Origin: a virus
Virus record (IMG/VR): IMGVR_UViG_3300009026_000047
Coordinates: 1 to 29,326 of that record
Direction: 5' to 3' (one strand)
Length of the DNA stretch: 29,326 nucleotides
Part shown: one piece after another, positions 1 through 29,326 of the stretch
How positions within the stretch are numbered: position 1 is the first letter of the stretch
Layout of the letters: every line of letters starts with the position of its first letter
The notes under the pieces: model-generated
Told to the model about the DNA's origin: nothing
The model's input: only the letters and a program-made list of their open reading frames with translations
The model's database searches: none
Translations under genes and position numbers: made by a program

Positions 1-51
1 AAACTTGCTCCCCATGAGAGGGAGTTTTTGCGTAACTTAGTTGAGTATTAA
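1..51 (+). CDS. 3' end of an upstream gene (partial)
   Basis: Frame 1 is open from the first base to a TAA at 49-51 and encodes 16 residues ending in FLRNLVEY. The other two + frames hit stops within the first 40 bases. Only 14 bases separate this stop from the next ATG, which fits the tight packing seen elsewhere in the window. Too little is present to name a family. Confidence 0.45.
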   Translation, partial: KLAPHEREFLRNLVEY

Positions 52-65
52 AAGGTTATATAATT

Positions 66-677
66 ATGGAAAGAGTAAACATTAAACAGGTACTGCCTAA
101 TCCTGATAATCCTAGATTCATTAAGGACTATAAGTTTGAGAAGTTAGTGAAGAGCATCAAGGAGTTTCCTCAGATGTTAGATCTAAGACCTATAGTAGTG
201 AATCAGGATATGATCGTACTAGGAGGCAACATGAGATTAAAGGCTTGTGAAGAAGCAGGGCTAACAGAAGTGCCTATCATCTTTGCAGATAACCTTACTC
301 CAGATCAGGAGAAGGAATTCATCATTAAGGATAACTCCTCATTCGGTGAATGGGATTGGGATCTTCTAGCTAATGAATGGAATGTTGATCAGTTGAATGA
401 TTGGGGTATGGATGTGCCTTATACTGAGGATGACATTGAGGAGATGGGTAACCCTATGAATGAGCAGAGCGAGAAGCCATTCGCTACTGAGTTAGATACA
501 CAGAGCAATTATCTGGTCCTGAAGTTTGATACAGACATTGATTGGATACAGGCAAAGACTTTGTTCGGTCTAAAGACAGAGACTGCTAAGAGAGCGAATG
601 GTAAGCCTTGGAGTCAGGGGATAGGAAGAGTAATTAATGGAGTTGAGGCAATAAACAAGATCCAGAATGAAGGTTAA
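66..677 (+). CDS. ParB/Srx-fold domain protein (phage ParB-like)
   Basis: 203 aa. The N-terminal 75 residues look like the ParB N-terminal fold: a NPDNPR segment at 11-17, a helix with LVKSIKEFP, RPIVVN at 41-46, and VLGGNMRLKAC at 51-61, which sits where ParB proteins carry the G-E-R-R-like nucleotide-binding turn. The rest is acidic and shows no motif known to me. There is no HTH, so it is probably not a partition protein. Phage proteins of this type often sit beside DNA methylases or other base-modifying enzymes and terminases, as here: the stop overlaps the glycosyltransferase start by 11 nt, so the two are probably co-translated. A CTPase or nuclease activity is possible but not shown. 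Confidence 0.75.
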   Translation: MERVNIKQVLPNPDNPRFIKDYKFEKLVKSIKEFPQMLDLRPIVVNQDMIVLGGNMRLKACEEAGLTEVPIIFADNLTPDQEKEFIIKDNSSFGEWDWDLLANEWNVDQLNDWGMDVPYTEDDIEEMGNPMNEQSEKPFATELDTQSNYLVLKFDTDIDWIQAKTLFGLKTETAKRANGKPWSQGIGRVINGVEAINKIQNEG

Positions 678-1407
678 ATTCTACTCACCATCTTATAAGC
701 GACCAGAGAAGAGTATTACTCAGATTCATTTTCCAGATGTTCAGTTAGTCGTAAGAGAGAGCGAAGCGGAGGAATATATTGCTAATGGAAATGATGTAGT
801 GATCTGCCCAGATTCTGCTCAAGGGAATCTATGTAGGGTTAGAAATTGGATTCTAGATAATCTGTTTGATGATGCGGATTGCATAGTTCTATTGGATGAT
901 GATTGCTCTAGGATCGGGAGATGGGAAGAACAAGTACAGATAAAGTTTAATATGAATGATCTTAGTGAGTTTGCAGAGAATATGGCGAACTTAACTAAAG
1001 ATATGGGATTCCACTTCTGGGGATTGAATTGTGTTACTGACAAGGGAGCGTATAGAGAATACACACCATTCGGCACATTGCAATATATCGGTGGTCCATT
1101 CCAAGCACACCTCAAGACAAGCAAGATCCGATATGATGAAAATCTACCTCTAAAAGAGGACTACGATATCACCCTTCAACATATACATAAGTATGGAGGA
1201 TGCTTGAGAGCAAACTTCGCTCATTATGATGTTAAACAAGCAGAACAAGAGGGAGGATGTGCTACCTACCGAAATCTGAAGAAAGAAAAGAGCCAATTCT
1301 TTGATTTACAGAGGAAATGGGGAAAGGATGTTATTAGAAGAGATAAGGGAAGCAAGAGAAGTTTTGACTTTAACCCTGTAATGAAAGTACCTATTAAAGG
1401 AGTATAG
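667..1407 (+). CDS. GT-A fold glycosyltransferase, TET-associated (TAGT)-like
   Basis: 246 aa. The start KVKFYSPSYKRP is the first strand of a GT-A domain. GNLCRVRNWILDN at 53-65 leads into IVLLDDDCS at 73-81, a DxD-type metal and nucleotide-sugar site with D77-D79. LKEDYDITL near residue 162 offers an acidic catalytic position, followed by HYDV and a basic C-terminus. The overall pattern matches the TET-associated glycosyltransferases described in phages, which add sugar to hydroxymethylated pyrimidines in DNA. No signal peptide or membrane segment is visible, fitting a cytoplasmic substrate. The modified-base role is inference: the TET or other hydroxylase expected beside it is not in this window and may lie upstream. 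A virion-decorating glycosyltransferase is the alternative. Confidence 0.65.
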   Translation: MKVKFYSPSYKRPEKSITQIHFPDVQLVVRESEAEEYIANGNDVVICPDSAQGNLCRVRNWILDNLFDDADCIVLLDDDCSRIGRWEEQVQIKFNMNDLSEFAENMANLTKDMGFHFWGLNCVTDKGAYREYTPFGTLQYIGGPFQAHLKTSKIRYDENLPLKEDYDITLQHIHKYGGCLRANFAHYDVKQAEQEGGCATYRNLKKEKSQFFDLQRKWGKDVIRRDKGSKRSFDFNPVMKVPIKGV

Positions 1408-1408
1408 C

Positions 1409-1756
1409 ATGGACAAGAATAGACAACATAAAAAAGCAATGCTAGAAGCACTAGAGAAATCTCTGGGAGTTGTAACATCAGCCTGTAAGAGTGTAGGGAT
1501 CGGTAGATCTACTCACTATCTATGGATGGAGAAAGATCCAGAGTATAAGAAGGAGGTTCAGGACATTGATAATGTAGCTATAGACTTTGCGGAATCACAA
1601 CTACATCAGCAGATCAAGGGAGGTAATCCTAGTAGCACAATCTTCTATCTAAAGACTAAGGGTAAGAAGAGAGGATATGTTGAGAGACAGGAGATAGCCC
1701 ATGAAGGGCTGAAGACATTCCAGATAGAGGAAGTGGATGAGCAAGATCCGAGTTAA
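1409..1756 (+). CDS. Terminase small subunit-like HTH protein
   Basis: 115 aa. Residues about 10-40 form a helix-turn-helix (LEKSLGVVTSACKSVGIGRSTHY pattern: A-C-K-x-V-G-I-x-R-S-T), followed by W-M-E-K-D-P-E-Y, the usual continuation in phage small-terminase HTH proteins. A helical second half (FAESQLHQQIKGG) and SSTIFYLKTKGKKRGY then follow, which is the classic end of this family. It binds the packaging site and hands DNA to the large subunit. Its position one base after the glycosyltransferase and overlapping terL by 20 nt supports the call. Family assignment is good; DNA-recognition specificity is unknown. Confidence 0.8.
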   Translation: MDKNRQHKKAMLEALEKSLGVVTSACKSVGIGRSTHYLWMEKDPEYKKEVQDIDNVAIDFAESQLHQQIKGGNPSSTIFYLKTKGKKRGYVERQEIAHEGLKTFQIEEVDEQDPS

Positions 1757-2891
1757 TAAAGTCTACGGACATCTTAAGAGATCAGATAAGAAGATAGTAG
1801 TAGAACAGGGAGGTACTCGCTCTGGAAAGACATACAACATCCTCTTATGGATTATCTTCTACTATTGTGGGGAGAATGTAGGTAAGACTATTACAATCGC
1901 TAGGAAGACATTCCCTGCAGTTCGCTCCTCAGTCATGAGGGACTTCTTAGATATCCTAAAAGGATCAGATCTATATAGAGAGGAGAATCATAACAAATCC
2001 AATTCAGAGTATATACTAAACGGCAATCTAGTAGAATTCATATCTATGGATCAGCCTCAGAAGATCAGGGGTAGGAAGAGGGATCTGGCATTCTTAAATG
2101 AGGCTAACGAATTGACCTTTGAGGATTGGCAACAGATCGTATTCCGTACCAACGGAAGAATCATTCTTGACTACAACCCTTCAGATACATTCCATTGGAT
2201 CTATGACAGGGTAATACCAAGAGATGATGCTGACTTCTATCAAACGACTTACAGAGACAATCCATTCCTAGATCAGACTATCATAGATGAGATAGAGCGA
2301 CTAAAGGAAACAGATGAGCATTATTGGAGAGTTTATGGATTAGGTGAGAGAGGAACGAATAGAGCACAGGTATTCCAATTCACAACTATCCAACAGATTC
2401 CTGTTACTGCTAAGTTTCTTTCCTTTGGTCTTGACTTTGGATTCACTAATGATCCTTCTGCATTGGTGGGATGTTATCAGGAAGGAGATAATCTTTACTT
2501 TCAGGAATTACTATATTCAACTAACCTAACCAATCAGGATCTGAACAGAGAATTCCAGAAGTTAGATATAGGGAGATATGATGAGATCTTTGGCGATTCC
2601 TCAGAACCTAAGAGTATAGAGGAACTACATAGAATGGGATGGAATATAAAACCTACTCAGAAGGGAGCAGATTCTGTTAATGCAGGGATTGATATGTTGA
2701 AGAGATATAAGATCCATATCATAGGAAGTAATCTCATGAAGGAGATGGAGAATTATAAATGGATGGAGGATAAGAACGGAAATCTATTGAATAAGCCAGA
2801 GGATAAATACAATCACCTCATTGATGCATTGAGATATGGGGTATATAATAAACTAAGCAAACCTAATTATGGGAGATACACAATCCGTTAG
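1737..2891 (+). CDS. terL: Terminase large subunit (packaging ATPase/nuclease)
   Basis: 384 aa, about normal for the compact PBSX/Terminase_3 class. Walker A is GGTRSGKT at 25-32. Walker B with the catalytic acid is LAFLNEAN at 117-124. A coupling motif region with LDYNPSD lies at 144-150. The RNase H-like nuclease begins at GLDFGFTNDPSA (D233), continues with FGDSSEP (D287) and ends with NHLIDALRYG (D363), giving the three metal-binding acids. All key residues are present, so it should be active. It powers DNA translocation into the prohead through the portal, which here is encoded 11 kb downstream rather than next door. The gene overlaps its upstream partner by 20 nt and its downstream neighbour by 23 nt. 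Confidence 0.95.
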   Translation: MSKIRVNKVYGHLKRSDKKIVVEQGGTRSGKTYNILLWIIFYYCGENVGKTITIARKTFPAVRSSVMRDFLDILKGSDLYREENHNKSNSEYILNGNLVEFISMDQPQKIRGRKRDLAFLNEANELTFEDWQQIVFRTNGRIILDYNPSDTFHWIYDRVIPRDDADFYQTTYRDNPFLDQTIIDEIERLKETDEHYWRVYGLGERGTNRAQVFQFTTIQQIPVTAKFLSFGLDFGFTNDPSALVGCYQEGDNLYFQELLYSTNLTNQDLNREFQKLDIGRYDEIFGDSSEPKSIEELHRMGWNIKPTQKGADSVNAGIDMLKRYKIHIIGSNLMKEMENYKWMEDKNGNLLNKPEDKYNHLIDALRYGVYNKLSKPNYGRYTIR

Positions 2892-16368: not shown

Positions 16369-16672
16369 TGAAAGAGGATACGGAAGTATCTATGGATCTA
16401 CTTGGTGGGGATCAGGAGATGCCTTCACCAATACAATAGGTTGGGGATCGGCAATGTTCTATATTCTAGATCCTGCTCAATTCCAACAAAGAGCATTAGA
16501 GGATGGTGCTACGATGGAGGCTTTTGAGTGTGTTTCTAAATCATTGAGAAGATTCCCACAAGCGGATAGAGGCAGACAATTGATGGATGCCTATGATGTT
16601 AGGGTAGAAGCAGCAGCAGGTGATACCGAAGCGAGAACCTGTACTATTAACGAATTAAACGAATTGATATGA
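16358..16672 (+). CDS. Small Gly/Trp-rich protein, likely virion-associated
   Basis: 104 aa. It begins MASDERGYGSIYGSTWWGSG, a short aromatic-glycine start that I associate with small proteins encoded after the connector in these phages. The rest has a helical pair FQQRALEDGATMEAFECVSKSLRRF. Function unknown. It ends with an ATGA overlap into the first tail-fibre-like gene, which suggests co-regulation with adsorption proteins, although the last GATC before the GATC-free segment lies inside it (16,469), placing it at the boundary of that segment. Confidence 0.5.
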   Translation: MASDERGYGSIYGSTWWGSGDAFTNTIGWGSAMFYILDPAQFQQRALEDGATMEAFECVSKSLRRFPQADRGRQLMDAYDVRVEAAAGDTEARTCTINELNELI

Positions 16673-18702
16673 GTCTGTATAAGGATGCCTCATTAGTAAT
16701 GATACCTTCAGCGGTGAAGGATGGTAAGTTGTATAGCATACGCCCTACTCCCGAATATGGAGCAGAGTTAGTTACTAATGGAACTTTTGATAGTGATAGC
16801 GATTGGGATAAAGGAACAGGTTGGACTATTAGTGGTGGTACTGCTAATTGCAACGGAACTAATGATACTGCGATAGAGCAAAACATATCAAGTAGTAACA
16901 CTACCCTAAAAAGAATAACATTTAGTGTATCCAATTATGTAAGTGGTACATTAAGAGTGTATAGCGGAAGTGGCGCAGATGTTTTTTTAAATGTTACTGC
17001 TAACGGAACATACGAACTTGAAAGTTATTTAATTGCTAATAAGATATTTATATACTCATTATCTTCTTTTGTTGGTAGTGTAGACAATGTATCGGTCAAA
17101 GAGGTAATTAAGGGAGATGGGGATTTCACATTTAGTAGGGGTTCAAATCTTGCTGCTACAAGGGTAGATGTTAATGGTCTTATTGAGAAGGGTAGAGAGA
17201 ATCTATTTACCAATTCTAATAATTTCGGCTCCACTTCTTGGGGAGGTTCAGTCATAGAAACAAGCGGTCAAAGTGGCTACAATGGTACTAACGATGCTTG
17301 GTTAATAGAAAACGCTGCAAACGGAAAATATATTAGGCAAGACAACACATCTTCGGGAGTTTTAACTGCTTCAGTTTATGCAAAGGCGGGTAATGTTAAT
17401 TGGTTAAGATTTGCAGTAAGTAATAGCCCTGTTGTTTCCGTTTACTTTGATTTAGTTAATGGTGTTTCTTCAAATCCTTCTAATGTAATAAGCCAAACTA
17501 TTGTAAGTGTAGGGAACGGATGGCATCGTTTATCCGCAACATTTCTTGCTAATTCTATGAGTGGAATGCAGTTTTATCCCGCTGATGGTGCTAATGATTT
17601 AGGGGAAACAGGAGACAATATATTTTTACAAGATGCTCAATTAGAAAGCGGCCTCGTAGCTACCCCTTACATTGAAACAGGAGCATCTACTGCACAAAGT
17701 GGTATATTAGAGGACTTACCAAGATTAGATTATAGTGGTGGTGCTTCGTGTCCATCTCTTTTACTTGAGCCTCAAAGAACGAATAACATACCTTATAGCG
17801 AATATCAATCGGGTAGTGGCTTTTCTTTAGGTGCGAACATTACTTGGAATGGATTTGTAGAGAGTCCAGAGGGATATAATAACGCAAGTAGATTTACTTC
17901 CTCTACAACTTCTGCAAGTTTTGTTCAAGCAAATAGTGTCGTAATTCCTGCGGGTGATTTTACATTCTCAATGTGGGTAAGGGGCGTGAGTGGCTCGTTT
18001 GTAAATAGAAGTATGTATATACCTTCAATGACAGGCTCGCAAGCAACAATGAATGAAGCACCTGTTGCAGGTGAAGATTGGAAGTTAGTTTATGGTACAG
18101 GTGAAAACACAACGGGCGGAGCAATTACACGAACTATTACCCTACCATTTTATGACCAACCTGCGGGAGCAGTATGGGAAATGTATGGATTCCAAGTAGA
18201 AGCAGGAAGTTACCCTACAAGTTACATACCTACTATGGGTTCTGCGGTTACGAGGTCAAGAGATTTTAGCGAGGCAGTATTTACTGAAAATGATATAGCA
18301 CCGACAGGCGGTACAACTTTGTTTATAGAATTTGAAACAAGTGGAGAAGTAGATACTACTCCTAATACAGGAGGGTTTTATCTCAAAAATAACGCAGGTA
18401 CTTTAGGTCATTGGGGTATGTCATTTGGCTATGGAGATAGAATATATTCTAATTACCAAAATGGTTCTACTATTCAATGGGATGGTGCGACTCCTGAAAA
18501 CACCTTATGTAAGGTTGCTTTCCAATTAGTTAATGGAGGTAAGTCATTTCTTAACGGGACAACCAAAGCAACTACAAGTGTTGATTGGTCAACAAGACAA
18601 TTAGGGCAACTTGAATTGCAATATGGAACAAGAGTTAAACAAGCCATTTTATTCCCTACCATTTTAACTGATAGCGAGTGTATCGCATTAACAACTTTGT
18701 AA
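16669..18702 (+). CDS. Lectin-like tail protein A (receptor-binding candidate)
   Basis: 677 aa, nearly all beta, rich in S, T, N and G. Domain order by eye: N-cap MSLYKDASLVMIPSAVKDGKLYS; a carbohydrate-binding-module-like jelly roll at about 30-145 (NGTFDSDSDWDKGTGW to VDNVSVKEV); a GDGDFTFSRGSNLAATRV block; a second CBM-like unit with SGQSGYNGTNDAWLIEN to FLQDAQLESGLVATPY; LPRLDYSGG and LLLEPQRTNNI; a third unit beginning SPEGYNNASRF; then a concanavalin-like C-terminal domain ending LTDSECIALTTL. Such proteins bind surface sugars. Shares most blocks with its neighbour. Glutamine is CAA almost throughout and GATC is absent, unlike the genome backbone. Confidence 0.7.
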   Translation: MSLYKDASLVMIPSAVKDGKLYSIRPTPEYGAELVTNGTFDSDSDWDKGTGWTISGGTANCNGTNDTAIEQNISSSNTTLKRITFSVSNYVSGTLRVYSGSGADVFLNVTANGTYELESYLIANKIFIYSLSSFVGSVDNVSVKEVIKGDGDFTFSRGSNLAATRVDVNGLIEKGRENLFTNSNNFGSTSWGGSVIETSGQSGYNGTNDAWLIENAANGKYIRQDNTSSGVLTASVYAKAGNVNWLRFAVSNSPVVSVYFDLVNGVSSNPSNVISQTIVSVGNGWHRLSATFLANSMSGMQFYPADGANDLGETGDNIFLQDAQLESGLVATPYIETGASTAQSGILEDLPRLDYSGGASCPSLLLEPQRTNNIPYSEYQSGSGFSLGANITWNGFVESPEGYNNASRFTSSTTSASFVQANSVVIPAGDFTFSMWVRGVSGSFVNRSMYIPSMTGSQATMNEAPVAGEDWKLVYGTGENTTGGAITRTITLPFYDQPAGAVWEMYGFQVEAGSYPTSYIPTMGSAVTRSRDFSEAVFTENDIAPTGGTTLFIEFETSGEVDTTPNTGGFYLKNNAGTLGHWGMSFGYGDRIYSNYQNGSTIQWDGATPENTLCKVAFQLVNGGKSFLNGTTKATTSVDWSTRQLGQLELQYGTRVKQAILFPTILTDSECIALTTL

Positions 18703-18705
18703 GAT

Positions 18706-20424
18706 ATGAGCATATACGATAAATCAAGTTTGGTACTTATACCAAGCGGAACAAAGACAGGTAAAGTGTTTAGCCAAAAGCCTGTAAGCGGTGATGGTGA
18801 TTTTACTTTCACTCGTGCAAGTGCTGCTACGAGAGTTAATGCAGATGGTAATATAGAGAAGGAGACACAAAACCTGCTCTTGCAGAGTAACTCGTTTCTT
18901 ACAAGTTGGGTAAGAACAGGATACACCTTGACAAGTGGGCAGAGTGGCTATGATGGAACAAATAATGCTTGGTTAGCAGAATGTACATCAGCAGGTCAAG
19001 CACTATACCAAACATCTAACGCAAGTGGTGTAAGCACATTGAGTTTTCATCTAAAACAAGGCACGGCTAACTTTTTAAGATTGAGAGCAGACCAATCTGC
19101 TGATGCTATTGCAGTTTTTGATTTAAGTGATGGTTCGGTTCATTCATTTAACGGAAATGTTATTGATACTAATGTGGTTGATTTAGGCGGTGGATGGTAT
19201 CGTTGTTCAATGACTTGGAATATAGACACCTTATCCAATGTACAATTACGAGCAGAAGATGGTAATGGAAGTCCTATACTTGGTACATTCTACATCCAAG
19301 ATGCCCAACTTGAGCAGGGACTTGTAGCAAGAGATGTTATCACTACAACTACTGCTGCCGTATACGGAGGTATTACAGACAATACTCCAAGATTAGATTA
19401 TACGGATAGTTCGTGTCCTGCACTATTGTTAGAGCCACAACGGACTAATGAACTATCGCATAGTGAATACATTAATGCAGCAGGTGGTTATGCTATAACA
19501 GGTGCTTCAGTAACATATAATTCAAGCACATCTCCAGATGGCTATACAAATGCCACATTATTTGATATTCCTTATGACAACGCAGGGTTTTACAATTTTG
19601 ATACAGGAGGCTCTAAAAGTGTAGGAGACAAGTTAACAATCTCTTTGTTTGCTAAACTTAAATCAGGCTCCGTTACTAATGTATTGAAGTTGGGCTATGG
19701 TGGTGCAGCCGTAGGAGGCGATAGATTAAGCGAATTTAATCTATCAACAGGTACTATTAGTTATTCTCATCCAAGTGCTGATTCAGTCAGTATTAAAGAT
19801 TATGGCAATGGTTGGTATCGTTTGATTCAAACTCAAACTTGTTCAGCCGATGGCTTTGCAGGAGCAGTAATGTATGGCAAAGGAGAAATGGATGTTTACA
19901 TTTGGGGAGTTCAAAGCGAAGATGCGGCATACGCAACATCCTACATACCTACCTATGGGAGTAGTGTGAGTCGTGTGGTTGATAATGGATACAAAGATGG
20001 CTTATCGGTATTCGGAACGAATAAAGGAAGTTTCTTTGTAGATGCTGAAGGGCCTAATTATAATGGTATTGCCGCAAGTTATTTATTTGATTTGTCCGAT
20101 AACTCATCGGATATAGTTAATCGGTTTGCAGTTTATGCGATTAACCAAAACACCTTTAACATATTTACAAATGGTGGTAATTCGTTTACACTTGATGCAT
20201 CAATTCGTAAAAAAATACTTGTGATTTGGAATGGAACAAACACAAAAGTATATGCTAACGGAGTAAAGGTTTTAGATTTCACTTATGCCAATGCTAATCC
20301 CACAAGCATTAACTTAAATAGCCGTTTTAACGATGTTGAATATGGCAAATCAGAATTTAAACAAGTGTTGACATTCCCAACTGCATTAACTGACCAAGAG
20401 GCGATTGACCTAACAACTATATAA
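18706..20424 (+). CDS. Lectin-like tail protein B (paralogue)
   Basis: 572 aa. Its blocks match the preceding protein in order: MSIYDKSSLVLIPSGTKTGKVFS, GDGDFTFTRASAATRV, SGQSGYDGTNNAWLAE, YIQDAQLEQGLVA, PRLDYTDSSCPALLLEPQRTNEL, SPDGYTNATLF, YGWYRL-like strands, TSYIPTYGSSVSR, and a C-terminus ending LTDQEAIDLTTI. It lacks the first CBM-like domain of protein A, so the size difference is largely one domain. The gap between the two genes is only 3 nt. Nucleotide identity between copies looks low, so the duplication is old or the copies came separately. A receptor-binding or tail-decoration role is inferred. Confidence 0.7.
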   Translation: MSIYDKSSLVLIPSGTKTGKVFSQKPVSGDGDFTFTRASAATRVNADGNIEKETQNLLLQSNSFLTSWVRTGYTLTSGQSGYDGTNNAWLAECTSAGQALYQTSNASGVSTLSFHLKQGTANFLRLRADQSADAIAVFDLSDGSVHSFNGNVIDTNVVDLGGGWYRCSMTWNIDTLSNVQLRAEDGNGSPILGTFYIQDAQLEQGLVARDVITTTTAAVYGGITDNTPRLDYTDSSCPALLLEPQRTNELSHSEYINAAGGYAITGASVTYNSSTSPDGYTNATLFDIPYDNAGFYNFDTGGSKSVGDKLTISLFAKLKSGSVTNVLKLGYGGAAVGGDRLSEFNLSTGTISYSHPSADSVSIKDYGNGWYRLIQTQTCSADGFAGAVMYGKGEMDVYIWGVQSEDAAYATSYIPTYGSSVSRVVDNGYKDGLSVFGTNKGSFFVDAEGPNYNGIAASYLFDLSDNSSDIVNRFAVYAINQNTFNIFTNGGNSFTLDASIRKKILVIWNGTNTKVYANGVKVLDFTYANANPTSINLNSRFNDVEYGKSEFKQVLTFPTALTDQEAIDLTTI

Positions 20425-26293: not shown

Positions 26294-26426
26294 ATTTAGC
26301 CCTTTATATGGATTGATGTTTGGACTTAATTATGCTTACTATCCTGAGGATATTGAGCGTAAACCAATGCACCTGATCCAGATGGGGCTAGGTTTAGTTA
26401 TGGTACAAATAACATGGGAAGAATAG
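26283..26426 (+). CDS. 47-aa small hydrophobic protein
   Basis: ATG inside the end of the DnaA-like gene; stop overlaps the next start by 13 nt. MQIEFSPLYGLMFGLNYAYYPEDIERKPMHLIQMGLGLVMVQITW has two short hydrophobic segments, borderline for membrane insertion. I associate similar short proteins with early genes of Bacteroidota phages. Function unknown. Fills a 120-base gap that would otherwise be empty. Confidence 0.55.
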   Translation: MQIEFSPLYGLMFGLNYAYYPEDIERKPMHLIQMGLGLVMVQITWEE

Positions 26427-26953
26427 AAACATTCTACAGGAAGAATTTCAAAAGACTCACAGGATTTATTAAGGAATATACTGATGGTTCTTATGAGATT
26501 GCATCTGATATAGTTCAGATGGTGTTTCTACGACTTTTAGAATTAGAGAGCGAAGGGAGAACCAACTTTTACGAGGAGGACTCCCTTAACTTTTTTTATG
26601 TCTATAGATCCTGTATCAATACGGCTCTTAAATACCAGAGAGCAAAGAAGAAGATCAATAAGGTATCTCTAGAGGATTTTGATATTGAAGATTACAAACC
26701 CTATCCAGAGGAGAAAGCAGCACTTGAGAAACTCATAACCTATATGGAGGATGAGATGAAGGAACTTCATTGGTATGATGAGAAGATGATCAGAATACAT
26801 ATGGAGGGAACGAGTATGAATCAGATCCATAGAGATACAGATATAGGTTTAACATCAATTAAGAATACGATCAAGAATGGCAAAGCAAGAATCCACGACA
26901 GACTCAGAGAAGATTGGGAAGATTTCGGAAACGGAGACTACGAAAAAATCTAA
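26414..26953 (+). CDS. Sigma-70-like (ECF-type) regulator
   Basis: 179 aa. Region-2-like N-terminal half: FIKEYTDGSYEIASDIVQMVFLRLLELE (21-45), where A-S-D-I-V-Q-x-V-F-L-R-L is the typical region 2.2 helix, and NFFYVYRSCINTALKYQRAKKK follows. Region-4-like HTH at 123-160: EKMIRIHMEGTSMNQIHRDTDIGLTSIKNTIKNGKARIHDRL, matching the ECF sigma helix pair. There are no other domains. It may act as a phage sigma factor for later genes, or as a regulator using the fold. Overlaps the next gene by 77 nt in a different frame. Confidence 0.65.
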   Translation: MGRIETFYRKNFKRLTGFIKEYTDGSYEIASDIVQMVFLRLLELESEGRTNFYEEDSLNFFYVYRSCINTALKYQRAKKKINKVSLEDFDIEDYKPYPEEKAALEKLITYMEDEMKELHWYDEKMIRIHMEGTSMNQIHRDTDIGLTSIKNTIKNGKARIHDRLREDWEDFGNGDYEKI

Positions 26954-28647: not shown

Positions 28648-29326
28648 TGTTAGATGGTGCTGACTACGATCAGCAATGGTTAATAGATAAAGCCAGAGGT
28701 GATGAGTTCTATTATGGAGCATTGAATAAGATAGCATTATCCTCTTCTAGTTGTAAGATGCTTCTAGATAGTCCTAAGACATTCTATAATGTTCAGAAGT
28801 ATGGATCAGTAGAATCATCTCCTGCTCTTCTAATGGGAAGGGTTATTCATGTGATGATCTTAGAGCCTCAGAACTTTGATGATATCTTTGAGGTAGTAGA
28901 TGTTGCTTCTAAGAATACTAAAGCCTTTAAGGAGGCTCAGTTAGATAATCCTAAGACTTGCATCACTAGAAAGGATAAGGAAGCAGGAGATCGTATGGCT
29001 GATGCATTTAATAGGAATGAATTAGCATTGAGTTATCTATCAGGATCTGAATGTGAAGTTCCTATGGTAGATCTGATCGGAGGATTCCCGTTTAGAGGGA
29101 AGGCAGATATCCAGAGAGGAGGAGAGATCATTGATCTTAAGACAACCACAGATCTAAAAGCCTTCAAATATTCAGCAGATAAATATGGATATGATCTACA
29201 ATGCTATATCTACTGCAATCTATTCAAGACCTCATATAAGGACTTCACATTTATAGTATTAGATAAGTCATCTACAGATATAGGAATCTATGATGTATCA
29301 GAGGAGTTCTATAAGAGAGGAGAGGC
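28647..29326 (+). CDS. RecE-type PD-(D/E)XK exonuclease (partial at 3' end)
   Basis: The frame is open from the ATG at 28647 (TAATG overlap; an ATG at 28641 is also in frame) to the end of the window, at least 226 aa. Blocks are those of the RecE C-terminal/DUF3799 exonuclease family: IALSSSSCKMLLDSPKTFY, then LLMGRVIHVMILEP with H68, later FPFRGKADI with D154 and EIIDLKTTTD with D163-x-K165. These are the expected metal-binding residues. The enzyme chews 5' ends to make 3' single strands for annealing by a partner protein that may follow beyond the window. Fits the SSB-like, RusA and nuclease genes as a recombination set. Confidence 0.8.
   Translation, partial: MLDGADYDQQWLIDKARGDEFYYGALNKIALSSSSCKMLLDSPKTFYNVQKYGSVESSPALLMGRVIHVMILEPQNFDDIFEVVDVASKNTKAFKEAQLDNPKTCITRKDKEAGDRMADAFNRNELALSYLSGSECEVPMVDLIGGFPFRGKADIQRGGEIIDLKTTTDLKAFKYSADKYGYDLQCYIYCNLFKTSYKDFTFIVLDKSSTDIGIYDVSEEFYKRGE

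Follow-up and report, generated by a model that had tools for sequence, protein, structure and literature searches.

We propose that a ParB-like gene and the glycosyltransferase (GT) gene that it overlaps make up one DNA-modification cassette with the GT as its probable modifier. Sequence comparison with related phages shows that the cassette lies immediately before the terminase genes, in a slot whose contents are exchanged. The window, meaning the whole stretch of DNA analysed here (29,326 bp), corresponds to a single IMG/VR virus record, and the features of the pair and its surroundings are collected in Table 1.

Table 1 Features of the ParB-GT pair and the adjoining terminase genes (window positions).
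Feature	Position	Strand	Evidence or remark
ParB_N protein, 203 aa	66..677	+	Constant cassette partner; Pfam ParB_N PF02195, 5.2e-6
ParB N-domain (aa 1-118), NTP-binding ParB-CTPase fold	66..419	+	Kept whatever the enzyme
ParB C-terminal tail (aa 119-203)	420..677	+	Co-inherited with the GT; identity tracks the enzyme
Exchangeable unit (ParB tail and enzyme)	414..1408 (approx.)	.	Block-replaced in sister phages, flanks preserved
TAGT-like GT-A glycosyltransferase (GT), 246 aa	667..1407	+	Pfam TAGT, 5.5e-10
DDD (DxD) metal/NDP-sugar motif (aa 77-79)	895..903	+	Invariant in alignments A1 and A2
LKEDYD motif (aa 162-167)	1150..1167	+	Invariant in alignments A1 and A2
GGC (aa 196-198)	1252..1260	+	Common to T6 Ggt
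C-terminal FDFNPxxKxPIKGV, specific to the window GT subfamily	1363..1404	+	D234, N236, P237, P242 and G245 invariant
Terminase small subunit (terS)	1409..1756	+	Fixed downstream border of the slot
Terminase large subunit (terL)	1737..2891	+	Fixed neighbour; Terminase_3, 2.7e-23

A conserved gene pair beside the terminase

The ParB and GT reading frames are both present and have 11 nt in common, with terS and terL downstream of them, which confirms the original prediction of a ParB-like gene overlapping a GT gene by this length beside the terminase. Of 77 related viral loci, 72 have ParB as the next gene upstream of the GT; in a second, more distant set this is true of 56 of 75 loci, and ParB is found nearby in a further eight, with nine loci of this distant set, in which a simple ORF picker had missed the GT, set aside. 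An 11-nt overlap of the two genes was seen in 51 loci and a 4-nt overlap in 39. The pairing is far beyond chance. Across 86 gene-rich GT loci the recurrent genes were the GT (80), ParB (77) and the terminase, the next family reached a count of 32, and no universally conserved third gene or enzyme was found among these loci.

The same pair occupies the same pre-terminase slot in the Streptococcus prophage Javan291, where the GT is 45% and ParB 35% identical to the window proteins. It was also found in contigs of genomes named Bacteroides, Phascolarctobacterium, Lentisphaerae, Victivallaceae and Chitinophagaceae, and the GT itself was found in Roseibacillus; a plasmid collection gave no match. 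Two loci carry in-frame TGA codons in the GT frame of otherwise well-matching genes, three in L148:170-904 and five in L156:10001-10756, which suggests that these phages read TGA as an amino acid. Elsewhere in the window, the neighbouring large proteins encoded at 16669-18702 and 18706-20424 belong to one sequence family (F193) and are probably duplicated tail-region proteins.

The glycosyltransferase belongs to the TAGT family

A profile search of the GT against the Pfam family TAGT (PF20691) gave 40.0 bits over residues 6-197 (E 5.5e-10), above the curated cut-off of 27.5 bits, and the protein also matched PHROG 842, 'beta-glucosyl-HMC-alpha-glucosyltransferase', at 9e-17. Its AlphaFold2 model (pLDDT 91.5) returned TAGT-annotated proteins and a Klebsiella phage beta-glucosyl-HMC-alpha-glucosyl-transferase among the top matches in BFVD, a set of predicted viral structures (E 5e-19 to ~4e-10, TM up to 0.86). 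The TAGT models there, with E values down to 1e-19 and TM scores mostly of 0.7-0.86, are separated by a large gap from generic GT-A models (E ~1e-6, TM ~0.5). Fold matches in the PDB were GT-A enzymes of a general kind, the best being polypeptide GalNAc-transferases, cellulose synthase and capsule-type enzymes, at Z ~13. In hhalign, the GT family profile and T6 Ggt aligned across GT residues ~27-224 (94.5%, E 8e-8). Profile, fold matches and homology to T6 Ggt together place the GT within the TAGT sequence family, in support of the predicted TAGT-like enzyme with a GT-A DxD motif, here a DDD that is invariant in the family. phmmer found no match for the GT among PDB sequences, NCBIfam holds no family for it, and the GT family profile, when compared directly with the TAGT of the sister phage L210, gave no useful score, though both match PF20691.

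In an alignment of 37 relatives, P8-S9-Y10, R12, D77-D78-D79, LKEDYD (162-167), GGC (196-198) and KWG (217-219) are invariant, as are D234, N236-P237, P242 and G245 at the C-terminus. We infer that LKEDYD marks the xED-type catalytic-base position of GT-A/GT2 enzymes. The C-terminal FDFNPxxKxPIKGV is absent from the L200-type, L210 and T6 proteins. The GT of the Microbacterium phage Honeyfin, gp84, was rejected as a member of this family, having no Pfam TAGT match and 24% identity; it is likely to be a distant relative of the pair.

ParB combines a common N-domain with a partner-specific tail

The ParB_N match of the upstream protein lies just above the cut-off (26.9 against 26.3 bits), and the model of this N-domain (pLDDT ~90) has CTP-bound ParB (7bnr) as its best PDB match. 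The GxxR motif of the domain reads GGNMR (aa 53-57), with G53, G54 and R57 invariant, and the arginine of this motif is required for NTP binding in the ParB N-domain fold (PMC12704722). ParB_N was the only domain found in Pfam searches with E up to 10, which returned neither an HTH nor a C-terminal dimerisation domain, and no ParA was among the Pfam families listed for the window and its relatives. Modelling gave no confident structure for the tail.

The two parts of ParB follow different partners. Over residues 1-118, sister phages whose partner is Mom, a methyltransferase (MTase), TET, GNAT or TAGT match the window at 70-95% identity, and residues 119-203 are 2-18% identical wherever the partner is anything other than a window-type GT. 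Beside a window-type GT the tail is 60-96% identical even where the N-domain falls to 34-78%, as in L005 (78% for the N-domain and 96% for the tail), L008 (65 and 92%), L051 (64 and 71%) and L070 (34 and 60%). In the methylase versions the enzyme itself takes the place of the ParB tail. The N-domain is plausibly the common NTP- and DNA-handling part of the protein, with the tail serving to dock the enzyme.

Sister phages carry other enzymes in the same slot

We surveyed the slot in contigs picked by terL alone, at 85-100% identity to the window terL. The 52 contigs with enough upstream sequence comprised nine with ParB and a GT, 32 in which ParB has another partner or is fused to an enzyme, and 11 with neither; the GTs of this set form a second type that has 28-30% identity with the one in the window. 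The flanks of the slot are 77-95% identical among the sister phages. Compared with window DNA, the Mom carrier L196 is 90% identical up to position 413 and 93% from 1409, the ABC-GNAT carrier L197 95% to 413 and 93% from 1425, the methylase carrier L205 89% to 422 and 87% from 1429, and L211, which has no enzyme, 91% to 406 and 88% from 1406.

Between these flanks we found Mom (PF25680, 7e-32 and 3e-51; carried by L192, L196 and L254), an N6_N4_Mtase fused to ParB_N (3e-18; L205, L224 and L226) and Tet_JBP (2e-27 and 5e-19), the first Tet_JBP type (2e-27) being followed by an amidotransferase, an amino acid:DNA transferase (ADDT, 7e-19) and a P-loop kinase in varied combinations. A 388-aa 'DNA modification methylase' occupies the slot in the streptococcal prophage Javan486. 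At the level of sequence, this comparison demonstrates that exchange moves the ParB tail together with its enzyme and that the ParB N-domain is common to the sister phages. The preserved flanks, the block replacement by other enzymes and the tail that tracks its enzyme argue for a DNA-modification cassette that is exchangeable and whose modifier is the solitary GT.

Several versions of the slot deserve separate mention. L207:1017-4348, L213:2-3435, L215:2204-5176 and L230:445-3945 hold ParB and TET/JBP together with an amidotransferase, GNAT, an amino acid:DNA transferase and a P-loop kinase in varied combinations, and the slot of L230 also has an oxidoreductase-like gene with a FAD-dependent look by eye; these four look like a thymine hypermodification pathway in phages of roughly 29 kb. 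An ABC ATPase-GNAT protein (PHROG 11143) replaces the GT beside ParB in L197:559-1644 and L212:1160-2248 and is a candidate for a new DNA modifier. A strict TAGT (PF20691, 5e-31) with its own long ParB tail is found in L210:4087-5668; the search of this 29.5 kb record for TET/JBP was negative. The second TAGT-like GT subfamily, which goes with a different ParB tail, occupies the same slot in L200:1325-2044 and in seven more loci. In the Psychrobacter phage vB_PmaS_Y8A, the table of PMC10434257 gives ParB (ORF16) and the terminase small subunit (ORF18) on either side of a gap that would fit one gene with no function listed (ORF17), which is possibly another version of the slot.

Searches for a base hydroxylase

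Those TAGT and T-even DNA GTs that have been characterised use as acceptor a base that is hydroxylated or carries a sugar already (PMC13216743, PMC13390438). Tet_JBP was found in none of 27 and none of 50 GT-carrying records, many of them fragments, with Javan291 and Honeyfin searched whole; the identical search was positive in 7 of 45 sister phages, so the search itself works. Neither did any member of the thymidylate synthase family (dCMP hydroxymethylase type) exceed the cut-off in the 27 and 50 GT-carrying records, the match in the window reaching 11.8 bits, inside ORF 26414-26953, against a cut-off of 24.3 bits. A C5-methylase was over its cut-off in only 3 of 27 GT-carrying records. As a constant partner of the pair, TET/JBP, a thymidylate-synthase-type hydroxymethylase and a C5-methylase were all rejected (0/77, 0/77 and 3/27).

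The original prediction had pointed upstream of position 1 as the place to look for a hydroxylase gene. A contig that is 98.7% identical to window positions 1-2739 also matches 28,972-29,323, and because it matches both window ends it bridges the unsequenced part, about 1.1 kb in length. Read from this contig, the ~1.1 kb that closes the genome holds the end of a DUF3799 gene, an ORF resembling an HNH nuclease and small ORFs, and no hydroxylase. Five relatives of 28.5-33 kb have overlapping ends and therefore look near-complete. When some 150 proteins standing for 11 records were scanned with Pfam, no 2OG oxygenase or hydroxymethylase appeared, and neither alpha-GT (PF11440) nor beta-GT (PF09198) was among the Pfam families listed for the representative proteins (A3: 25 of 36 families). 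These hydroxylase searches cover recognised families, and an unrecognised family would escape them.

The predicted hypermodification thus survives in part. DNA modification is strongly supported, since the other enzymes of the slot in sister phages (Mom, N6/N4 methylase and TET/JBP) are DNA modifiers by family, but the hydroxylase partner that the prediction implied was not found in the window, in the 77 GT-carrying records or in the bridged upstream region.

GATC density is independent of the enzyme

The window contains 231 GATC sites, and its coding sequence has 205 against 138 expected from synonymous-codon shuffling. By the same shuffling the window genes would be expected to hold 73 TCGA, 43 ACGT, 15 CCGG and 11 CGCG sites; they hold none, and all four are missing from the whole window. 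The density of GATC, which the original prediction took to be tolerable through masking of sites in modified DNA, is real as a count and has no link to the GT. GATC exceeds expectation in most sister phages, at similar density whether they carry Mom, a methylase, TET or no enzyme, and the GT carriers L021 and L048 have no GATC at all. Density independent of the enzyme is a lineage trait, and the masking explanation fails.

Avoidance of other palindromes likewise persists. Sister phages nearly all lack ACGT and mostly lack TCGA, whichever enzyme they carry, and other GT carriers are without CATG or GTAC. Among relatives more widely, CATG, GTAC, CTAG or GATC may be missing, a very strict restriction-site avoidance whose set differs between relatives. 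Carrying the GT brings no general relief from restriction pressure. Restriction palindromes are still wholly avoided in GT phages, so any protection must be limited in extent or to certain sites; the avoidance would fit a modification that is partial or site-specific and speaks against complete base replacement.

Discussion

The GT probably glycosylates phage DNA under the guidance of ParB. In such a mechanism ParB would bind NTP and phage DNA, and its partner-specific tail would deliver or activate the GT, which would move a sugar from an NDP-sugar onto bases at a limited set of sites once the DNA is replicated but not yet packaged; the sugar would protect the DNA against some host nucleases. 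With no third gene consistently present, the GT must use an acceptor already in DNA, which would most simply be an unmodified base and otherwise a host-made handle. We tentatively suggest, at somewhat less than even confidence, that a ParB-guided GT-A enzyme may put a sugar directly on an unmodified base (e.g. on an exocyclic amine) in one step and with no hydroxylated precursor, one ParB N-domain serving many enzymes via interchangeable tails. As an observation on the sugar, the genes for ParB, the GT and a 260-aa protein resembling UDP-glucose dehydrogenase form an overlapping series in the complete genome of the cultured phage Honeyfin (L089:40655-42830), a hint of UDP-glucuronate in that phage, whose GT has no TAGT match. 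Such a ParB-GT-UDP-glucose dehydrogenase order, with a distant GT, is shared by the Microbacterium quhwahviruses (Honeyfin, Quhwah and Paschalis; 56 records), which are laboratory phages.

A hydroxylase-dependent route, in which a phage TET/JBP or thymidylate-synthase-type enzyme supplies hmC or hmU for the GT to cap, is favoured by the TAGT family name and the T6 precedent. It also has a parallel in a Flavobacteriaceae MAG, where genes for ParB, for a distant GT of TAGT-like type and for a TET/JBP-like protein stand in a row (L098:289-2337), as the original prediction expected; the last of these genes matches PHROG 6059/24024, as does the Tet_JBP protein of L207. However, Tet_JBP was not found in the 77 GT-carrying records and was found in seven of the 45 sister phages, no thymidylate synthase exceeds the cut-off, and both the bridged upstream region and the Pfam scans came up empty, so that the route is largely refuted for the window GT subfamily and, taken as a whole, very improbable. 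The handle might instead be made by the host or by a host-encoded methylase or hydroxylase, as the want of any detected phage gene for it would allow. Yet the pair is linked to hosts as different as Streptococcus, Bacteroides, Phascolarctobacterium and Victivallaceae, which makes one shared host enzyme unlikely, and no common bacterial source of hmC or hmU is known; we consider a host-made handle improbable.

We also weighed whether DNA is the target at all. The closest solved GT-A structures modify proteins and polysaccharides, which would fit glycosylation of a cell-surface polymer or of a protein, be it one of the host or one of the phage (a structural protein, the terminase or ParB itself); this is rather unlikely, given that TAGT models match the GT far better than generic GT-A models do, that the slot otherwise holds DNA modifiers, and that ParB N-domains are fused to DNA methylases at the same position. 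As for ParB, its ParB_N domain with GxxR and its resemblance to CTP-bound ParB are what a partition protein for a plasmid-like prophage state would have, with the GT as an unrelated neighbour. To this reading we give next to no credence, as ParB has no detected HTH or C-terminal dimerisation domain, no ParA is among the Pfam families listed, and the ParB tail covaries with the neighbouring enzyme.

ParB-guided transfer of a sugar to DNA by the GT would, if no hydroxylated handle is involved, amount to NDP-sugar-dependent glycosylation of a normal DNA base, a new chemistry useful for DNA labelling. The swapping slot is also a place to seek further DNA modifiers, such as the ABC-GNAT protein. 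In the literature searched, whose coverage of ParB-TAGT neighbours is incomplete, we came across no account of the exchange slot or of ParB tails matched to a partner, and we make no priority claim.

Among the closest known systems is T6 Ggt (TAGT, PF20691), which acts on glucosyl-hmC (PMC13216743). It is homologous to the window GT, is likewise of GT-A type and has DDD, ED and GGC..R in common with it; however, its gene adjoins that of the dCMP hydroxymethylase gp42, whereas no partner genes of that kind accompany the window GT, which is coupled to ParB and has its own C-terminal FDFNPxxKxPIKGV. Solitary TAGT homologues were reported in 288 of 753 phage genomes, their function left open (PMC13216743). 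They are TAGTs without an alpha-GT or beta-GT, as the window GT also appears to be; here, a constant ParB partner, the terminase slot and enzyme swapping are added, and the role of such solitary homologues becomes testable.

The same holds for the company that ParB domains keep with phage DNA-modifying enzymes (PMC12783734, PMC12704722). Phage fusions of ParB_N with N6/N4 methyltransferases are known (PMC12704722); they have the same ParB N-domain, and the sister phages L205, L224 and L226 carry such a fusion in exactly the same slot, whereas the window GT is a separate, overlapping gene and its ParB has a dedicated tail. ParBc genes also neighbour the DNA carboxymethyltransferase CmoX, a case of a ParB_N gene, its role stated to be unknown, near a phage DNA modifier (PMC12783734), but the CmoX chemistry, C5 carboxymethylation followed by an amide ligase, differs from that of the GT. 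Mom of phage Mu (PF25680), finally, is a single-gene DNA modifier that acts on adenine and whose family replaces the GT beside ParB in the same slot, with acyltransferase-type chemistry in place of the sugar transfer expected of the GT.
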